Positions 16,961 to 37,162 of a DNA stretch of 64,000 nucleotides are shown here, piece after piece. The position numbers and the translations under genes were made by a program. The notes beneath the pieces were generated by a model. That model was not told the origin of the DNA, made no database searches, and worked only from the letters and a program-made list of their open reading frames with translations. Positions within the stretch are counted from its first letter, which is position 1; the number at the start of each line of letters is the position of its first letter. The stretch is from Ectobacillus funiculus (lineage in GTDB: Bacteria > Bacillota > Bacilli > Bacillales > Bacillaceae_G). The stretch spans positions 1 through 64,000 of the forward strand of contig NZ_SCFM01000036.1 of assembly GCF_004138295.1 (NCBI RefSeq), given 5' to 3'.

Positions 16961-17018
16961 CAATTACTAGTTCATTTGTATAGAGCTCTGGTTATTTGCA
17001 GAAAAATGGAGTCCATTT

Positions 17019-17070
17019 TTGACTTTTTAATGGTTAATCCGTTATAGTCAAATTGTGGGCTAAACCACAA
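17019..17070 (+). promoter_or_regulatory. Promoter and leader hairpin of the third cold-shock gene
   Basis: TTGACT (17019-17024) and TATAGT (17043-17048) are 18 bases apart. They are followed by TTGTGG-GCTAAA-CCACAA, the counterpart of the 16190 hairpin with a different loop. Confidence 0.65.
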
Positions 17071-17097
17071 GATTTAAGATTGAAGGGAATGGAAGGC

Positions 17098-17295
17098 ATG
17101 CAAGGAAAAGTAAAATGGTTTAATGCAGAAAAAGGATTTGGTTTTATCGAGCGTGAAAATGGAGACGACGTATTCGTACACTTCTCTGCAATCCAAACAG
17201 ACGGCTACAAGTCTTTAGAAGAAGGCCAAGAAGTAGAATTCGATATCGTTGAAGGCGCACGCGGTCCGCAAGCAGCGAACGTAGTAAAGCTATAA
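17098..17295 (+). CDS. Cold-shock protein, copy 3
   Basis: A 65-residue cold-shock domain with [12 protein letters not shown] and [19 protein letters not shown] at 17098 follows AAGGGAATGG. The longer frame from 17053 runs through the leader and is not credible. A perfect terminator follows at 17351. Confidence 0.95.
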
Positions 17296-17350
17296 TAACC
17301 CGTTTATAAGCAGCTCGTGCTTTACATAAATCAGGGAAAAAGCACACCAA

Positions 17351-17377
17351 CCCCCGTTTTGCAAAACGGGGGTTTTT
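17351..17377 (+). terminator. Terminator after cold-shock gene 3
   Basis: CCCCCGTTTT-GC-AAAACGGGGG followed by TTTTT. Confidence 0.95.
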
Positions 17378-17382
17378 CATAT

Positions 17383-31816: not shown

Positions 31817-32467
31817 ATGGGGATTTTTAGACGAATAAAAAATATCGCACTTGCTGATGTGCATAGTGTGCTTGATAAAGCGGAAGATCCACTCAGCATG
31901 ATCAAGCAATACTTGCGCGAGATGGAGGAGCAGCTCGTAAAGGCGCAGCAGGCACTGTCTGAGCAGCTGTTTTTGGAGAAAAAGTATGAAATGCTTACTT
32001 TGCAAACGCAGGAAGCTGTTGAAAAGCGCCTTAGACAAGCAAACCTTGCAGTGGAGCGAAATGAGGACGAAATTGCAAAATTAGCGCTGCAGGATAAGAT
32101 TGTACAGGAACGCAAGCTAGCATCGTACAAGCAACAGTATGAAGTGATGCAAGTACAAACTACTAATTTGTATGAAAAGGTAAAGGCTCTGCAGGAAAAG
32201 TATGAAGAGCTGAAGCTAAAGCAGCAGGAGCTGATCGCCAGAGCGCATGCTGCGAGGGCTGTGAAGGAAATTAATACAACAATTGCGTCTTTTAATGCAG
32301 ATAACGCAATGCGCGGCTTTGCCAGAATGGAAGAGCGCATCTGGGCGTTAGAAGCTGAAGCAAAAGCAAGCCAAGAAATTGCAGCTCCACATCAACCGAG
32401 CATGAACCCCCTCTTGCAGGCTGAAGTGGAACAGCAATTGGAACAGTTAAAAGCAGCGAAGTCCTAA
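31817..32467 (+). CDS. PspA/IM30/LiaH family membrane stress protein
   Basis: PspA-family proteins form large coiled-coil assemblies on the inner face of the membrane and protect it from envelope stress. The 216-residue protein begins MGIFRRIKNIALADVHSVLD, has the DPLSMIKQYLREME helix and continues as coiled coil (about 25-145). It ends in a linker and a C-terminal helix (EQQLEQLKAAKS). AAGGAGGAG is seven bases before the ATG. It forms an operon with the membrane protein before it; a terminator follows. Confidence 0.92.
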   Translation: MGIFRRIKNIALADVHSVLDKAEDPLSMIKQYLREMEEQLVKAQQALSEQLFLEKKYEMLTLQTQEAVEKRLRQANLAVERNEDEIAKLALQDKIVQERKLASYKQQYEVMQVQTTNLYEKVKALQEKYEELKLKQQELIARAHAARAVKEINTTIASFNADNAMRGFARMEERIWALEAEAKASQEIAAPHQPSMNPLLQAEVEQQLEQLKAAKS

Positions 32468-32544: not shown

Positions 32545-32572
32545 TCCCTCCGTTTGGGGGGATTTTTTTTAT
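32545..32572 (+). terminator. Terminator after the pspA-like gene
   Basis: CCCTCC-GTTT-GGGGGG followed by ATTTTTTTT. Confidence 0.8.
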
Positions 32573-32687
32573 ACTTTAAGAAAGTATAAATTTCTAGCAG
32601 GAAGACCATTCGACGTAGTGAGAAATTTTAGGAACAAAGTATAAGTGCAACTACACCTCTGTCTTCGCCTAACGGCTTGCCAATCGG
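32568..32687 (+). repeat. Family A repeat, right end replaced by family B
   Basis: TATACTTTAAGAAAGTATAA, TTCGACGTAGTGAGAAATTTT, GTGCAACTACACC and CTTGCC-AATCGG are intact. At 32688 the copy stops inside its terminal hairpin and family B begins (TTACTGTAAGAAAGG). Confidence 0.9.
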
Positions 32688-32841
32688 TTACTGTAAGAAA
32701 GGATAACTTTTCGGGGCGATGTCTAGCTCCCAAGGCCAAAGTGGCAGCGTAGGGCTGAACCTCCGCAAAAGGAAAAAAGCGTCTTTTACTCCGGCCCACC
32801 CCTACGCTGCCATAAAAGGCGGCCCTTGTCTGCTTTTCTTA
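32688..32841 (+). repeat. Family B repeat, longest copy
   Basis: It runs from CTGTAAGAAAGGATAACTTT to TGTCTGCTTTTCTTA. Inside, TGGCAGCGTAGGG and CCCTACGCTGCCA form a perfect 13-bp stem, flanked by CAAGGCC and GGCCCTTG, so the element is one long imperfect hairpin. Confidence 0.88.
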
Positions 32842-32875: not shown

Positions 32876-34525
32876 CTATCCTCTCAACAGCGTTGGTGGG
32901 ATTTCTTCTTGATCAACCATTACCTCAACTACTGTCGGTCCGTTGTGATTGTTCAGAGCTTCCTTGAGAGCCAGGTGTAAGTCTTCAATAGTCCAACACT
33001 TAAAGGATAATGCTCCCATTGCTTCACTATATTTTTTAACGTCGAGTTCATTTTTGAAAATAGTGCCAACAGCTTTTCCAGCATTGTTTGACATACCTTT
33101 ATCGACCATATCAAGTCTTCCATTATTCAAAACAATAAAGATAGTAGCTGCATTGCTGTCAACTGCTGTTGAAACCTCATTTCCATGCATAAAAAAGCAT
33201 CCATCACCTGTTAAACAGACGATAGGCTTAGTAGGATTGCTTAACTTCGCACCAATACTAAAACCAATAGCATGTCCCATTGCGCCAAAAACATCATCAA
33301 AATAGAATGTGGCCTGCTTTGTCAGTGTTAGGTGCTGAATAGCATAAAAGGAATGGCTGCCATCATCACCAAAGAAAACAGTATCTGCGGGAAAATTCTC
33401 TCTTAGGGCAGCAATGACTTGCTTTGCTAGTAGCCTTTCAACTGTAATCGGTGTTTCCTTTTGTAGCTCTGCACTAATATGTATCTGCGGCTTTGAAAAA
33501 GGTTTAGCTAATCTATCTGTCTTAATTAATTTTAATAAACTCTCAAGATTATGCTTAGCGTCACCAAGAACAAGCTGTGTTGCAACAGGAATTGATTTGC
33601 CAATAAACGTATAGTCGTAATCAAAATGAATAATTTTATCTGGATACAAAGCGGGATCCAGTCCAACAATAGACATATCAGATAACTTAGATCCTATTAC
33701 AATTATGAGATCACTCTTATTCTTTAAATACTCACTAGCTTTTGCAGAGCCGCCTAGTCCAAACCCATCTAGGGACAGATCATGTGTTGTTGGAAATGTT
33801 CCTTTTCCGCCAGGTGTTGTCATGACTGGTATGTTAAAGGTTTCCGCTAAACGAATGACTTCCTCATAGGCTCTGGAGGAATGCACACCTTTTCCTAAAA
33901 TCATGACAGGCCGCTTAGAAGTTAAAATACAATCTAAGGCTTGTTGTAACTCCTTTTGGGTCGCTATCACATGTGGAACTTCATCGGGTATGTCTAAAAT
34001 AAAAGATTCTGCCTGCTCATCCAATACATCCATAGGGAGTGAAAGGTGAACAGGTCCCTTCACTCCATATAATGCGCTCTCAATAGCATGAGAAAAGATA
34101 CTTTTAAATGATTCAGCTCGGTCTATGCGTGCACTAAATTTTGTTACTGGCTCAAACATTTTTATTAAGTCTGTCCCAAATGCTGAAGAGTCTTGTCCAA
34201 ACGGTTTACCCATATCTTTAGCAGAGGGGTGCCCTGTAATAAAAACAACTGGTAAATGCCATGCTTTTGCTTGTGCCGCAGCCGTCAGCAAATTGGTGCC
34301 GCCTGGACCAGAAGTACCTATTGCGACTCCAATAGAATCATTCATTAAGGAATAACCAGAAGCAATATAACCAGCTCCAGTTTCATGCCTAGTTAGATTG
34401 AATTGAATACCATGGTTCTCTAATTCGAGTAAAATTGGAACAATAGGTTTTCCAGGAACACCAAATGCATGACGTACACCCATATTCTTAAGATTAATAG
34501 CAAGGATTTCTGCAACTTTTCTCAT
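32876..34525 (-). CDS. Thiamine-diphosphate-dependent enzyme, acetolactate-synthase-like
   Basis: The 549-residue protein has the three-domain layout of ThDP enzymes such as acetolactate synthase, benzoylformate decarboxylase or glyoxylate carboligase. The N-terminal catalytic Glu lies in TRHETGAGYIASGY, the central domain has PVMILGKGVHSS, and the C-terminal ThDP-Mg site is GDGCFFMHGNEVSTA ending in VLNNGRLD. The substrate cannot be assigned; no small IlvN subunit or partner gene is adjacent, which argues against the biosynthetic enzyme. AAAGGA precedes ATG 34525. The leader contains two c-di-GMP-type riboswitches, so expression is probably tied to the motile/sessile switch. Its base composition is more AT-rich than its neighbours, suggesting acquisition. 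Confidence 0.85.
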   Translation of the reverse strand: MRKVAEILAINLKNMGVRHAFGVPGKPIVPILLELENHGIQFNLTRHETGAGYIASGYSLMNDSIGVAIGTSGPGGTNLLTAAAQAKAWHLPVVFITGHPSAKDMGKPFGQDSSAFGTDLIKMFEPVTKFSARIDRAESFKSIFSHAIESALYGVKGPVHLSLPMDVLDEQAESFILDIPDEVPHVIATQKELQQALDCILTSKRPVMILGKGVHSSRAYEEVIRLAETFNIPVMTTPGGKGTFPTTHDLSLDGFGLGGSAKASEYLKNKSDLIIVIGSKLSDMSIVGLDPALYPDKIIHFDYDYTFIGKSIPVATQLVLGDAKHNLESLLKLIKTDRLAKPFSKPQIHISAELQKETPITVERLLAKQVIAALRENFPADTVFFGDDGSHSFYAIQHLTLTKQATFYFDDVFGAMGHAIGFSIGAKLSNPTKPIVCLTGDGCFFMHGNEVSTAVDSNAATIFIVLNNGRLDMVDKGMSNNAGKAVGTIFKNELDVKKYSEAMGALSFKCWTIEDLHLALKEALNNHNGPTVVEVMVDQEEIPPTLLRG

Positions 34526-34562
34526 GTCATTAAAATTCCTTTCGCTTGAGATTCAGCAAATA

Positions 34563-34690
34563 TAAAAAAACCCCTGTATAGACATAAATGGGGTGAAAAT
34601 AAAGATTTATGTAACCAGCCATCATAGTACAACTGCCGTAGACCTGTAGGCTTTACGTCCTCGACTTGGGACGGGTTTGCCTCATATAGA
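34563..34690 (-). promoter_or_regulatory. c-di-GMP-I (GEMM-I) riboswitch, gene-proximal copy, with terminator
   Basis: On the minus strand it reads GAGGCAAACCC, then GAGGACGTAAAGCCTACAGG, TCTACGGCAG and CTATGATGGCTGGTTAC, the order and spacing of the GEMM-I aptamer. A terminator with arms ACCCC and GGGGT and seven T follows at 34563-34594. Compared with the second copy, the P2 loop is CCAA instead of GAAA and GACGCAAAG has become GACGTAAAG, so ligand binding may be weakened or altered. Confidence 0.8.
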
Positions 34691-34845
34691 TTTAGCTGTT
34701 TCCTGTTACGAATTAAAATTTATTATCAGTACTTTAGGACATAAAAATATGACGCTTCGTATCATGATTTAAATATGCTATATATCTATATGGGCGTTAA
34801 CTTATGTATTATTTAGGAACCGTTTCATTTTGCGGACTGGCAAAT

Positions 34846-34975
34846 ACAAAAAACACCCTATATAGACATAAATAGGGCGTAAACAAAAAATTTATGCAAC
34901 CCAGCCATCATAGCACAACTGCCGTAGATCTGTAGGCTTTGCGTCCTCGACTTTCGACGAGTTTGCCCTATTTAG
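34846..34975 (-). promoter_or_regulatory. c-di-GMP-I (GEMM-I) riboswitch, distal copy, with terminator
   Basis: On the minus strand it reads AGGGCAAACTCGTCGAAAG, TCGAGGACGCAAAGCCTAC, CTACGGCAG and CTATGATGGCTGGGTTGC. The GAAA tetraloop, ACGCAAAGCC and the receptor-side CTATGATGG are all present. A terminator (GCCCTAT, TATAGGGTG, TTTTTT) follows at 34848-34881. The aptamer 5' strand TAAATAGGGC is perfectly complementary to the terminator arm GCCCTATTTA. Confidence 0.88.
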
Positions 34976-35134
34976 ATTTCATTTTTCCTGCTGCAAATTA
35001 ACGCTGCAAGGTGGCGTGACATTGCTCTTAAATTCATGTACAACAATTGGAAAATCCGCTTTTCAATAAATTTAAATATAATTTATCACGTATTCTGAAT
35101 AAAATAAACCAATATTCGACAAATTATTAGTTCT

Positions 35135-35268
35135 TTTACACTGTAGGAAAGTATAAATTTCGGAGGCAAATTCGACGCAGTCCGGAATTTTAGGAATATA
35201 GTGTAAGTGCAACTACACCTCTGTCTTCACCCAAGGGCAGAGCCTGCCAATCGGCGAGTTTTCTTTAT
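35135..35268 (+). repeat. Family A repeat, full copy with altered stem
   Basis: ACACTGTAGGAAAGTATAAA, arms AAATTTCGG and CCGGAATTT, GTGCAACTACACC, CTGCC-AATC-GGCGAG and TTTTCTTTA. Both arms of the first stem have changed relative to other copies yet still pair. Confidence 0.9.
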
Positions 35269-35431: not shown

Positions 35432-36859
35432 TTAACGCATTCCTCTGCCTTTGCCGCCTATTCCCTTACCATAGCCAAAGTTATGATAATTATCTTGAAA
35501 TAATGTTTTTGCTGTTTCAGGGGATTTAGTAGAAATCTCCTTCATAAGCTCTTTTGTTGTTTTATTGGCTGTATCAATACTGAGCTCTTTTGCTGCCTTT
35601 AACACTTTCGCATCTTGGACTTCCTTAGCTAGTGTTTGGGTGTCCTTATCATCGGTGGAGATGCCAAGCTCTTTTGCATCTTTTTTCACCTGTGCGTCAC
35701 GCACCTCACTAGCTAAAGTTTCTGTGTCTTTGCCGTCAGTAGAGATGCCAAGCTCTTTTGCATCTTTCTTCACCTGTGCGTCACGCACCTCACCAGCTAA
35801 AGTTTCTGTGTCCTTGCTGTCAGTAGAGATGCCGAGCTCCTTTGCTTCAGCCTTCACCTTCGTGTCACGAATTTCCTTTTGGAGTGTTTCACTGTCTTTA
35901 CCGTCGGTGGAAATGCCAAGCTCCTTTGCTTCAGCCTTCACCTTTGTATCACGAATTTCCTTTTGGAGTGTTTCACTGTCTTTATCGTCAGTGGAAATGC
36001 CAAGCTCCTTTGCTTCAGCCTTCACCTTTGTATCACGAATTTCTTTTTGGAGTGTTTCACTGTCTTTACCGTCGGTGGAAATGCCGAGTTCCTTTGCTTC
36101 AGCCTTCACCTTTGTATCACGAATTTCCTTTTGGAGTGTTTCACTGTCTTTATCGTCAGTGGAAATGCCAAGCTCCTTTGCTTCAGCCTTCACCTTTGTA
36201 TCACGAATTTCTTTTTGGAGTGTTTCACTGTCTTTACCGTCGGTGGAAATGCCGAGTTCCTTTGCTTCAGCCTTCACCTTTGTATCACGAATTTCCTTTT
36301 GGAGTGTTTCACTGTCTTTATCGTCAGTGGAAATGCCAAGCTCCTTTGCTTCAGCCTTCACCTTTGTATCACGAATTTCTTTTTGGAGTGTTTCACTGTC
36401 TTTACCGTCGGTGGAAATGCCGAGTTCCTTTGCTTCAGCCTTCACCTTTGTATCACGAATTTCCTTTTGGAGTGTTTCACTGTCTTTATCGTCAGTGGAA
36501 ATGCCAAGCTCCTTTGCTTCAGCCTTCACCTTTGTATCACGAATTTCTTTTTGGAGTGTTTCACTGTCTTTACCGTCAGTGGAAATGCCAAGCTCCTTTG
36601 CTTCCTGCTTTAACTGGACATCGCGCACTTCTTTAGCTAAAGTTTGTGTATCTTTACCATCTGTTGCAATTCCTAATTCCTTTGCCTTTTGTGTAACAGC
36701 CTCCGTGCTTAGTTCTTTTCCATGACCATATTTCTGTTCCGCTGCTTGTGTTGTTTGCGTTGTAGTGCTTTGCGCTGCAAATGCCGGCATACCGTTTACA
36801 AGTCCGATTCCGAAGGCGAGAGTTCCTGCAGCTACGATTCCTAATGTGCGTCTTTTCAT
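35432..36859 (-). CDS. Secreted protein of fourteen 28-residue repeats
   Basis: The 475-residue precursor has a signal peptide (about 1-28, ending FAA), a short linker, fourteen tandem 28-residue units of the type AKELGISTDGKDSETLQKEI plus RDTKVKAE, and a Gly/Lys-rich tail (GYGKGIGGKGRGMR). The central nine units are nearly identical and alternate strictly between STDGKDS and STDDKDS, giving a 168-bp higher-order period. The first, last and C-terminal four units are diverged. Each unit looks like two helices around a turn and loosely resembles SAP/HeH-type helix-loop-helix modules; this is inference. AGGAGGAAAAGG precedes the ATG. Function unknown; an exported, highly charged repeat protein could act at the cell surface or spore. 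Repeat number is likely to vary between strains. Confidence 0.85.
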   Translation of the reverse strand: MKRRTLGIVAAGTLAFGIGLVNGMPAFAAQSTTTQTTQAAEQKYGHGKELSTEAVTQKAKELGIATDGKDTQTLAKEVRDVQLKQEAKELGISTDGKDSETLQKEIRDTKVKAEAKELGISTDDKDSETLQKEIRDTKVKAEAKELGISTDGKDSETLQKEIRDTKVKAEAKELGISTDDKDSETLQKEIRDTKVKAEAKELGISTDGKDSETLQKEIRDTKVKAEAKELGISTDDKDSETLQKEIRDTKVKAEAKELGISTDGKDSETLQKEIRDTKVKAEAKELGISTDDKDSETLQKEIRDTKVKAEAKELGISTDGKDSETLQKEIRDTKVKAEAKELGISTDSKDTETLAGEVRDAQVKKDAKELGISTDGKDTETLASEVRDAQVKKDAKELGISTDDKDTQTLAKEVQDAKVLKAAKELSIDTANKTTKELMKEISTKSPETAKTLFQDNYHNFGYGKGIGGKGRGMR

Positions 36860-36901
36860 GACCTTTTCCTCCTATAGTGTTGATATGTATGTGGTTTCGT
36901 T

Positions 36902-37028
36902 GCACTGTAAGAAAGTATAAATTTCCAGCTGGAAGTGAATTCGACGTAGCCGGAAATTTTAGGAATACAGTATAAGTGCAACTACGCCTCTGTCTTCGCC
37001 CAAGGGTGGGCATTGTCCGCTTTTCTTA
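36902..37028 (+). repeat. A/B hybrid repeat
   Basis: The left 100 bases are family A (CACTGTAAGAAAGTATAAAT to CTCTGTCTTCGCCCAAGGG). The right end is family B (GGGCATTGTCCGCTTTTCTTA) in place of the CTCGCC hairpin. The junction is at about 37007. Confidence 0.85.
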
Positions 37029-37162
37029 CACTGTGAGAAAATATAAATTTCCAGCTGGAAGTGAATTCGACGTAGCCGGAAATTTTAGGAATACAGTATA
37101 AGTGCAACTACGCCTCTGACTTCGCCCAAGAGCAGGGCTCGCCAATCGGCGAGTTTTCTTTA
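37025..37162 (+). repeat. Family A repeat, full copy in tandem with the hybrid
   Basis: ACACTGTGAGAAAATATAAA, TTCGACGTAGCCGGAAATTTT, GTGCAACTACGCC, CTCGCC-AATC-GGCGAG and TTTTCTTTA. It shares the TTACACTGT boundary with the preceding element. Confidence 0.93.

Follow-up and report, generated by a model that had tools for sequence, protein, structure and literature searches.

A duplicated c-di-GMP-I riboswitch leader, probably terminating transcription, before a BbmA/CsmA-like thiamine diphosphate enzyme gene in Ectobacillus funiculus

A 64,000-nucleotide stretch of the Ectobacillus funiculus genome (contig NZ_SCFM01000036.1, positions 1 to 64,000; hereafter, the window) carries on its minus strand a gene for a thiamine diphosphate (ThDP)-dependent enzyme of 549 amino acids (aa; 32876 to 34525), preceded by a leader with two cyclic di-GMP (c-di-GMP)-I riboswitch aptamers. 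A first-pass annotation of this DNA had proposed two such aptamers (GEMM-I) on the minus strand, each with its own intrinsic terminator, in clearly duplicated units of about 130 bp, and had named the Rfam model as the check; all of this was borne out. A search of the window against all Rfam families at curated cut-offs returned two minus-strand matches to RF01051, at 69.5 bits (E = 1.5e-11) and 45.5 bits (E = 1.1e-5), both above the gathering score of 35. The upstream aptamer (34892 to 34977) is sound, with 20 of 22 consensus pairs canonical and its GAAA tetraloop kept, and behind it lies a terminator hairpin at 34853 to 34880 with a U-tract at 34846 to 34852, as placed by the sequence and a forced fold. 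The second aptamer of the proposed pair (34607 to 34691) is present in degenerate form, keeping 17 of the 22 pairs in Rfam's alignment and having lost the GNRA loop; its terminator hairpin, at 34570 to 34594 in the minimum-energy fold, is followed by a U-tract to about 34563. Both terminator loops exceed 8 nucleotides (nt) by reading of the sequence, and a terminator scan allowing loops of 3 to 8 nt found none. A likely ribosome binding site, AAAGGA at 34537 to 34542, stands 11 nt before the ATG at 34525, and a promoter scan found no sigma-70-type promoter on the minus strand. The source assembly (5.4 Mb in 146 contigs) holds seven c-di-GMP-I matches, and the same search of 14 well-known control genomes gave none.

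In an alignment that starts 24 nt ahead of the aptamer and includes the terminator, the two units are identical at 135 of 163 columns, and the starts of their aptamers lie 285 to 286 bp apart. The aptamers differ at 11 of 87 columns. With the aptamer of a related locus (L113, described below) as sole outgroup, nine of these changes are derived in the downstream copy and two in the upstream copy (two-sided binomial p = 0.065), and on this count we reject a balanced tandem switch. The changes downstream include two bases of the GNRA loop, one deletion, and a base that we take to be equivalent to C46. The ligand-contact positions G11, A38 and C83 of the Rfam model, presumably G20, A47 and C92 in the usual c-di-GMP-I numbering, are retained in both aptamers. 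According to a figure legend in PMC9481103, G at the first contact position selects c-di-GMP and A selects c-AMP-GMP; this position is G in both aptamers, and we therefore reject c-AMP-GMP as a variant ligand. Read from the sequence, the leader is probably nearer to a single sound switch joined by a decaying second copy whose terminator is still sound.

The enzyme gene is an intact open reading frame (ORF) whose product has the TPP_enzyme N, M and C domains and the expected motifs. Its first-pass description as acetolactate-synthase-like holds for the ThDP enzyme but comes too close to acetolactate synthase. The best 25 of the 57 NCBIfam models matched by the protein all score below their cut-offs, the best being TIGR00118 (311.3 bits against 538), with TIGR02418 at 227.4 bits against 551. 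Its nearest solved relatives, by sequence and by the fold of a model of the enzyme, are BbmA and CsmA, which are closer to it on both counts than any acetolactate synthase. The PDB entries of CsmA and BbmA (8x3z, 8x3x and 8xod) are titled "ThDP-dependent HKA synthase," where HKA denotes an alpha-hydroxy-beta-keto acid; this activity is given in the titles and in passages of citing papers, one of which spells the second enzyme BpmA, and CsmA is cited there for its synthetic uses. Judged by its sequence and modeled fold, the window enzyme is not a plain acetolactate synthase. By analogy with BbmA and CsmA, the nearest among the ThDP enzymes compared, we infer that it would join two 2-oxo acids into an alpha-hydroxy-beta-keto acid. 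Two observations weigh against this reading. The identity to BbmA/CsmA in the structural alignment is only about 34%, and the locus has no gene for a carboxymuconolactone decarboxylase (CMD), the partner found beside most relatives (see below); elsewhere in the genome there are four CMD homologs, the best 43% identical with an internal stop, and no good partner was found. The window enzyme also differs from CsmA and BbmA in standing alone in its transcription unit behind riboswitches.

The genomic surroundings of the family point to signaling. Two of the first four orthologs follow directly behind a GGDEF-EAL gene and one behind a PAS-kinase gene, and we extended the survey to the best 80 of 402 relatives in named genomes, all Bacillota by title. 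These counts use our own ORF picking and take the relatives as they come, uncorrected for kinship. Under a strict rule, 49 of the 80 loci have a sensor-GGDEF-EAL gene as their upstream neighbor, and 2 more have a GGDEF-EAL or EAL piece there. In 10 loci the neighbor is a histidine kinase that carries the same sensor, in 3 a histidine kinase gene oriented divergently, in 1 a chemoreceptor and in 14 another gene; in 1 locus it is unread. Under a looser rule, 53 of 79 loci have a same-strand GGDEF/EAL gene immediately upstream and 61 of 79 a protein with a DhaR-type sensor, against a background for this rule of 7 among 742 other ORFs in the same loci; L103, which has no ORF in the gene model, is left out of the neighbor counts, and L035 and L105 count as GGDEF/EAL under the looser rule only. 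Among the 53 sensor-GGDEF-EAL proteins, 49 have GGDEF and 4 have SGDEF, and 52 have EAL, so that most look able, by their motifs, to make or break c-di-GMP. A CMD gene, whose product's solved relatives bear that name, lies directly downstream of the enzyme in 60 of the 80 loci, and a chemoreceptor gene within three genes downstream in 12. No GGDEF-EAL gene lies directly upstream of the window enzyme: the neighbor on that side (35432 to 36859, minus strand) encodes a repeat protein without a GGDEF or EAL match, and on the other side is a convergent PspA gene (31817 to 32467, plus strand).

A distant subfamily, about 33% identical to the window enzyme (L013 to L017), likewise follows GGDEF-EAL genes, and one member (L015) matches CsmA itself at 731 bits, which places CsmA within this GGDEF-EAL-linked subfamily. 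We found the subfamily in 45 of 397 genomes of the order. In the 31 loci that we read, with 1.5-kb flanks (30 among the 45 genomes plus L014, with L137 left out as the same place as L013), a GGDEF-EAL gene lies upstream on the same strand in every one, as an EAL piece only in one; 28 of these lie within 400 bp of the enzyme gene, and in L136, L140 and L142 the GGDEF-EAL or EAL gene is 445 to 692 bp upstream. In four subfamily loci read at greater length the upstream protein is 931 to 976 aa long with a differing N-terminal part, tandem GAF domains by eye. None of ten control ThDP loci at about 30% identity, read with the same flanks, has a GGDEF/EAL gene upstream; nine of the ten control proteins pass the TIGR00118 cut-off, and the tenth (L021) is another ThDP protein. 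Two long-parted subfamilies, as far as their sequences tell, thus share the GGDEF-EAL neighbor though their sensors differ. The genomic tie of this enzyme family to c-di-GMP proteins is strong. Since its relatives are mostly encoded beside signaling proteins, the enzyme probably belongs to signaling rather than to ordinary metabolism.

Several relatives show further arrangements. In L080, L094 to L096 and L098 to L100 the order is enzyme, CMD, a small protein of about 125 aa, and a chemoreceptor; the same small protein stands behind CMD in L011 (no Pfam match), L028, L113 and L114. Two enzyme copies face each other in Paenibacillus caseinilyticus (L091, 4368 to 12639), behind a sensor histidine kinase and a GGDEF-EAL gene, and the 675-aa ortholog of L012 (1492 to 3519) has about 130 extra residues between its central and C-terminal TPP domains (189 versus 59 in the window enzyme). 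Plasmid pBMV_1 of Priestia megaterium ATCC 14581 (L132) carries a 54% identical ortholog, annotated as a thiamine pyrophosphate-binding protein, directly behind genes for an ATP-binding protein and a Spo0E family protein, with insertion sequence elements nearby; the ATP-binding protein may be kinase-like. This locus hints that the kinase type may feed the sporulation phosphorelay. On a plasmid of Pseudalkalibacillus hwajinpoensis (L133), the ortholog is split into two annotated genes without an adjoining GGDEF-EAL gene.

The N-terminal sensor common to the neighboring GGDEF-EAL and histidine kinase proteins matches the sensor of E. coli DhaR, DhaR(N), over most of its length. The match to PDB entry 4lrx reaches E = 9e-24 with a profile that includes one sigma-54 activator row, and a single sensor protein, with no sigma-54 row involved, matches the NCBIfam DhaR model at 7.5e-23, below the model cut-off. 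The three best fold matches of a sensor model (mean pLDDT, the predicted local confidence, 84.5) are the complexes of DhaR(N) with DhaK or DhaL (4lrx, 4lry and 4lrz). Since DhaR was solved in complex with enzyme subunits, this type of sensor may, by analogy, read a protein rather than a small molecule. The family's sensor proteins differ from DhaR in their output, which is GGDEF-EAL or histidine kinase and not a sigma-54 activator, and in being absent from the window locus. At E values up to 1e-10, no GGDEF-EAL protein of the window genome matched over the DhaR-type sensor, and the sole match there is a sigma-54 activator, 24% identical over 188 columns. Read by eye, that activator is AcoR-like and lies beside an acoL-like fragment; AcoR-type regulators are, we presume, a further comparison for the sensor.

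A second lineage supports the gene as a riboswitch target. Orthologs 73% and 71% identical to the window enzyme (L113 and L114; Fictibacillus by the genus of L028, Fictibacillus nanhaiensis) each have a c-di-GMP-I aptamer (72.8 bits) and, in the 66 nt that separate it from the start codon, a terminator; in both, CMD and a small gene of unknown kind come after the enzyme gene. The two leaders are identical over the aligned stretch and count as one independent case. In a quick tree of 89 rows, from which L028 (split ORF) and L103 were left out, the window enzyme groups with L113 and L114 in a single clade (SH-aLRT 100). With c-di-GMP-I before the enzyme in two lineages, the enzyme gene as a riboswitch target is real and not an accident. 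A covariance model built from eight aptamers and scanned over 84 orthologous loci gave three matches at E up to 1, namely L106, L077 and a weak one in L028, so we reject c-di-GMP-I as a general regulator of the family; Rfam at gathering scores was applied to 10 of the 80 named loci, and the others were scanned with the eight-aptamer model alone. Sub-cut-off matches to a BsrG-like small RNA lie upstream of the riboswitch in L113 (804 to 1060, 43.7 bits) and L114 (3572 to 3831, 40.5 bits), against a cut-off of 55.

Taken together, these observations make it probable, with room for doubt, that the leader (34526 to 34980) is a transcription-terminating c-di-GMP-I riboswitch, duplicated in its lineage, that controls a single BbmA/CsmA-type ThDP carboligase gene. 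Several findings weigh against it. The strong aptamers of L106 and L077 do not immediately precede the enzyme gene: that of L106 heads a seven-transmembrane GGDEF gene two genes upstream of the enzyme, and that of L077 is placed after the CMD gene and ahead of a response-regulator gene. Two such finds are about what chance predicts, with 1.4 expected at the density of the source genome, and neither counts as support. The F. nanhaiensis aptamer directly before the enzyme is weak (27.3 bits with our model and 25.4 with Rfam, below its cut-off) and the enzyme ORF is split by an in-frame stop, which shows that the system can be lost. The gene was absent from all three genomes of the source genus that we searched, whose UvrB is 88 to 89% identical to that of the source, and it is present in 3 of 18 genomes of the F. 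nanhaiensis genus. Among 60 relatives, four have orthologs at 50 to 54%, and the search of the 397 genomes of the order returned one further close match, which has the coordinates and score of L114 and is taken as the same genome.

The direction of the switch can be approached through the pairing between aptamer and terminator. In all three distinct units, the two of the window and that of L113, an 8-base stretch at the 3' end of the aptamer complements the terminator loop, over 8, 8 and 6 bp. The predicted antiterminator of unit 1 (34866 to 34897) would pair 34890 to 34897 with 34866 to 34873, and that of unit 2 (34582 to 34612) would pair 34605 to 34612 with 34582 to 34589 as an 8-bp complement. 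The helix starts at the same aptamer position in the three units, and its 3' stretch holds the base equivalent to C92. Ligand binding needs C92, and therefore ligand and antiterminator should exclude each other. One helix pair is changed on both sides, from U-A to C-G, between the window and Fictibacillus-genus units, and the first pair is G-U, A-U and G-C across the three. Unit 1 has a further candidate antiterminator, a 10-bp helix in the minimum-energy fold between the leader at 34965 to 34974, which includes the GGGC of the aptamer, and the terminator arm at 34869 to 34878. We consider it likely from these pairings, at about the same level of confidence as the assignment of the leader itself or slightly above it, that the switch is OFF, with c-di-GMP terminating transcription.

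The opposite arrangement, in which the terminators form by default and c-di-GMP prevents them, so that the enzyme is made at high c-di-GMP, is possible but on the unlikely side. It has a precedent in Bc3-5 of Bacillus thuringiensis, a triple tandem for which PMC4759541 proposes and measures a switching on of transcription, and it agrees with the folding of unit 2 and the L113 unit, both of which have the terminator in the ligand-free minimum-energy fold; unit 1 has it in the centroid. The same source, in its account of Bc4, has the ligand depriving the terminator of P1, of part of P3 and of the nucleotide at the binding site. In the window leader, by contrast, each terminator lies entirely on the 3' side of its aptamer. 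The terminators do not overlap the aptamers, and the ligand therefore cannot break them directly: in unit 1 (34853 to 34880 against 34892 to 34977) there is nothing for the ligand to pull from the terminator, and the antiterminators found need aptamer nucleotides. Beside those ligand-free terminators, other points count against an OFF switch. The 3' antiterminator costs energy relative to the free fold in the three units (-27.0 versus -32.6, -25.6 versus -26.7, and -33.6 versus -34.7; the energy of one forced terminator fold with a U-U pair was not used), free folding does not settle the direction (z = -0.77, 0.48 and -0.91), and helices as long arise in 262 of 5,000 mononucleotide shuffles for unit 1 and 53 of 5,000 for unit 2, or 1 to 9% overall. 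The evidence on direction also comes from no more than three distinct units, and two of these are duplicates of each other. On the OFF reading, c-di-GMP would bind the upstream aptamer, whose bound 3' end could then not pair with the terminator loop; the terminator would form and turn the gene OFF, and the downstream copy would add a weak second brake. The window switch resembles tandem c-di-GMP-I forms such as Bc3-5 in aptamer sequence and fold, in a terminator per unit and in tandem order, and differs in its target, a ThDP carboligase, and in being predicted OFF rather than ON.

What the locus is for can be read in other ways. One alternative is that the enzyme makes acetolactate or acetoin in ordinary metabolism, c-di-GMP merely tuning carbon overflow in sessile cells and the neighboring genes reflecting metabolic regulation; this is improbable given that the acetolactate synthase models shown all stay below cut-off, that BbmA and CsmA are nearer in sequence and fold, and that none of nine acetolactate-synthase loci has a GGDEF/EAL neighbor. 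Another holds that the DhaR-type sensor reads the enzyme or its occupancy instead of the free product, as a contact with a trigger enzyme, with the riboswitch setting the amount of the partner. It draws on the DhaK- and DhaL-bound structures as the sensor's best sequence and fold matches and on the adjacency of sensor and enzyme genes in 61 of 79 loci, but it has to account for a window genome whose sole sensor match is a sigma-54 activator and for the CsmA-subfamily loci read, none of which showed a DhaR-type sensor within the 1.5-kb flanks; we hold it to be doubtful. The least probable account, for which we see little chance, is a decaying remnant in which the switches, and possibly the gene, are on their way out and regulate nothing. 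The degenerate downstream aptamer, the decay of aptamer and ORF in F. nanhaiensis and the absence of the gene from three of three same-genus genomes would fit it, and against it stand an upstream aptamer of 69.5 bits with its ligand positions kept, an intact enzyme ORF with its motifs, and a full-strength aptamer in two Fictibacillus-genus genomes.

The known targets of c-di-GMP riboswitches are mainly genes for adhesion, motility and the cell wall; Bc1 and Bc2 in PMC5816809 are examples. Section 26 of PMC9481103 counts 347 doublets and 12 triplets of tandem c-di-GMP-I. PMC12452182 lists tandem c-di-GMP-I with yebA (transglutaminase-like), and T-box or T-box/guanidine arrangements with COG0028. 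The open-licence literature that we searched yielded no report of c-di-GMP-I before a ThDP enzyme or of a GGDEF-EAL/ThDP operon. The first-pass annotation had thought a stand-alone ThDP enzyme an unusual metabolic target; the target is indeed unreported in that literature, but the oddity lessens where the family adjoins GGDEF-EAL, histidine kinase or chemoreceptor genes in most loci read. Since the enzyme family is linked to signaling genes without a riboswitch, a c-di-GMP riboswitch target fits an existing link. Tandem c-di-GMP-I is already common, and the family-wide link of GGDEF-EAL and ThDP genes in operons is the more interesting part.

The target here forms carbon-carbon bonds, and in Bacillales the genes of its family stand next to those for c-di-GMP turnover proteins with no riboswitch involved, which gives CsmA a natural context. 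In most relatives an operon shared with a sensor-GGDEF-EAL protein ties the enzyme to c-di-GMP; in the window genome no partner gene of this kind was found, and the riboswitch would make the link and seems to replace the operon. If the OFF switch holds, the riboswitch would give this enzyme family, linked as it is to c-di-GMP signaling, a further way of being wired to it. In relatives, the neighboring CMD protein may decarboxylate the alpha-hydroxy-beta-keto acid to an acyloin. The product may serve as a signal, as a cue to the sensor or as a lifestyle-specific metabolite. These arrangements raise the question of whether the product of a ThDP carboligase is read by c-di-GMP signaling, for which the plasmid-borne ortholog of P. 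megaterium ATCC 14581 offers a tractable strain. A fuller scheme, speculative and unlikely as a whole, has the carboligase make an acyloin-type (alpha-hydroxyketone) signal that is finished by CMD and read by the adjacent DhaR-type or GAF-like sensor, which sets c-di-GMP, phosphorelay or chemotaxis output, with the riboswitch closing the loop in the window and Fictibacillus-genus lineages. If true, it would be a widespread and so far unnamed signal-maker/receptor system of Bacillales. It would resemble the alpha-hydroxyketone autoinducer systems of CqsA and LqsA only if the product of the window enzyme is an acyloin signal; CqsA and LqsA are pyridoxal phosphate enzymes, unlike the ThDP enzyme here.

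Five other c-di-GMP-I switches of the source genome precede an 89-aa ORF that resembles a Spo0E-type phosphatase by eye (L001/L120), a 1161-aa protein with a GH18 domain (L003/L122), a 91-aa ORF followed by an HD protein (L004/L123), two ArsR-like regulators, again by eye (L005/L124), and no clear gene (L002/L121). The repeat protein encoded upstream of the leader is a secreted-looking 475-aa protein that consists largely of a 28-aa repeat (84-bp unit, 12 registers, 65 to 95% identical to the reference), and its Pfam matches are weak and repeat-driven. A dispersed repeat of about 110 to 130 bp occurs near the locus at 32564 to 32673, 35126 to 35235, 36895 to 37004 and 37021 to 37130; the query 32560 to 32800 has 62 matches in its own genome, itself included, some of them in tandem arrays with a period of about 134 bp, such as 14857 to 15666 on contig C108 and 213120 to 213909 on contig C24. 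Elsewhere in the window, a cspA thermoregulator match lies at 17000 to 17378 on the plus strand (85.4 bits against a cut-off of 78).

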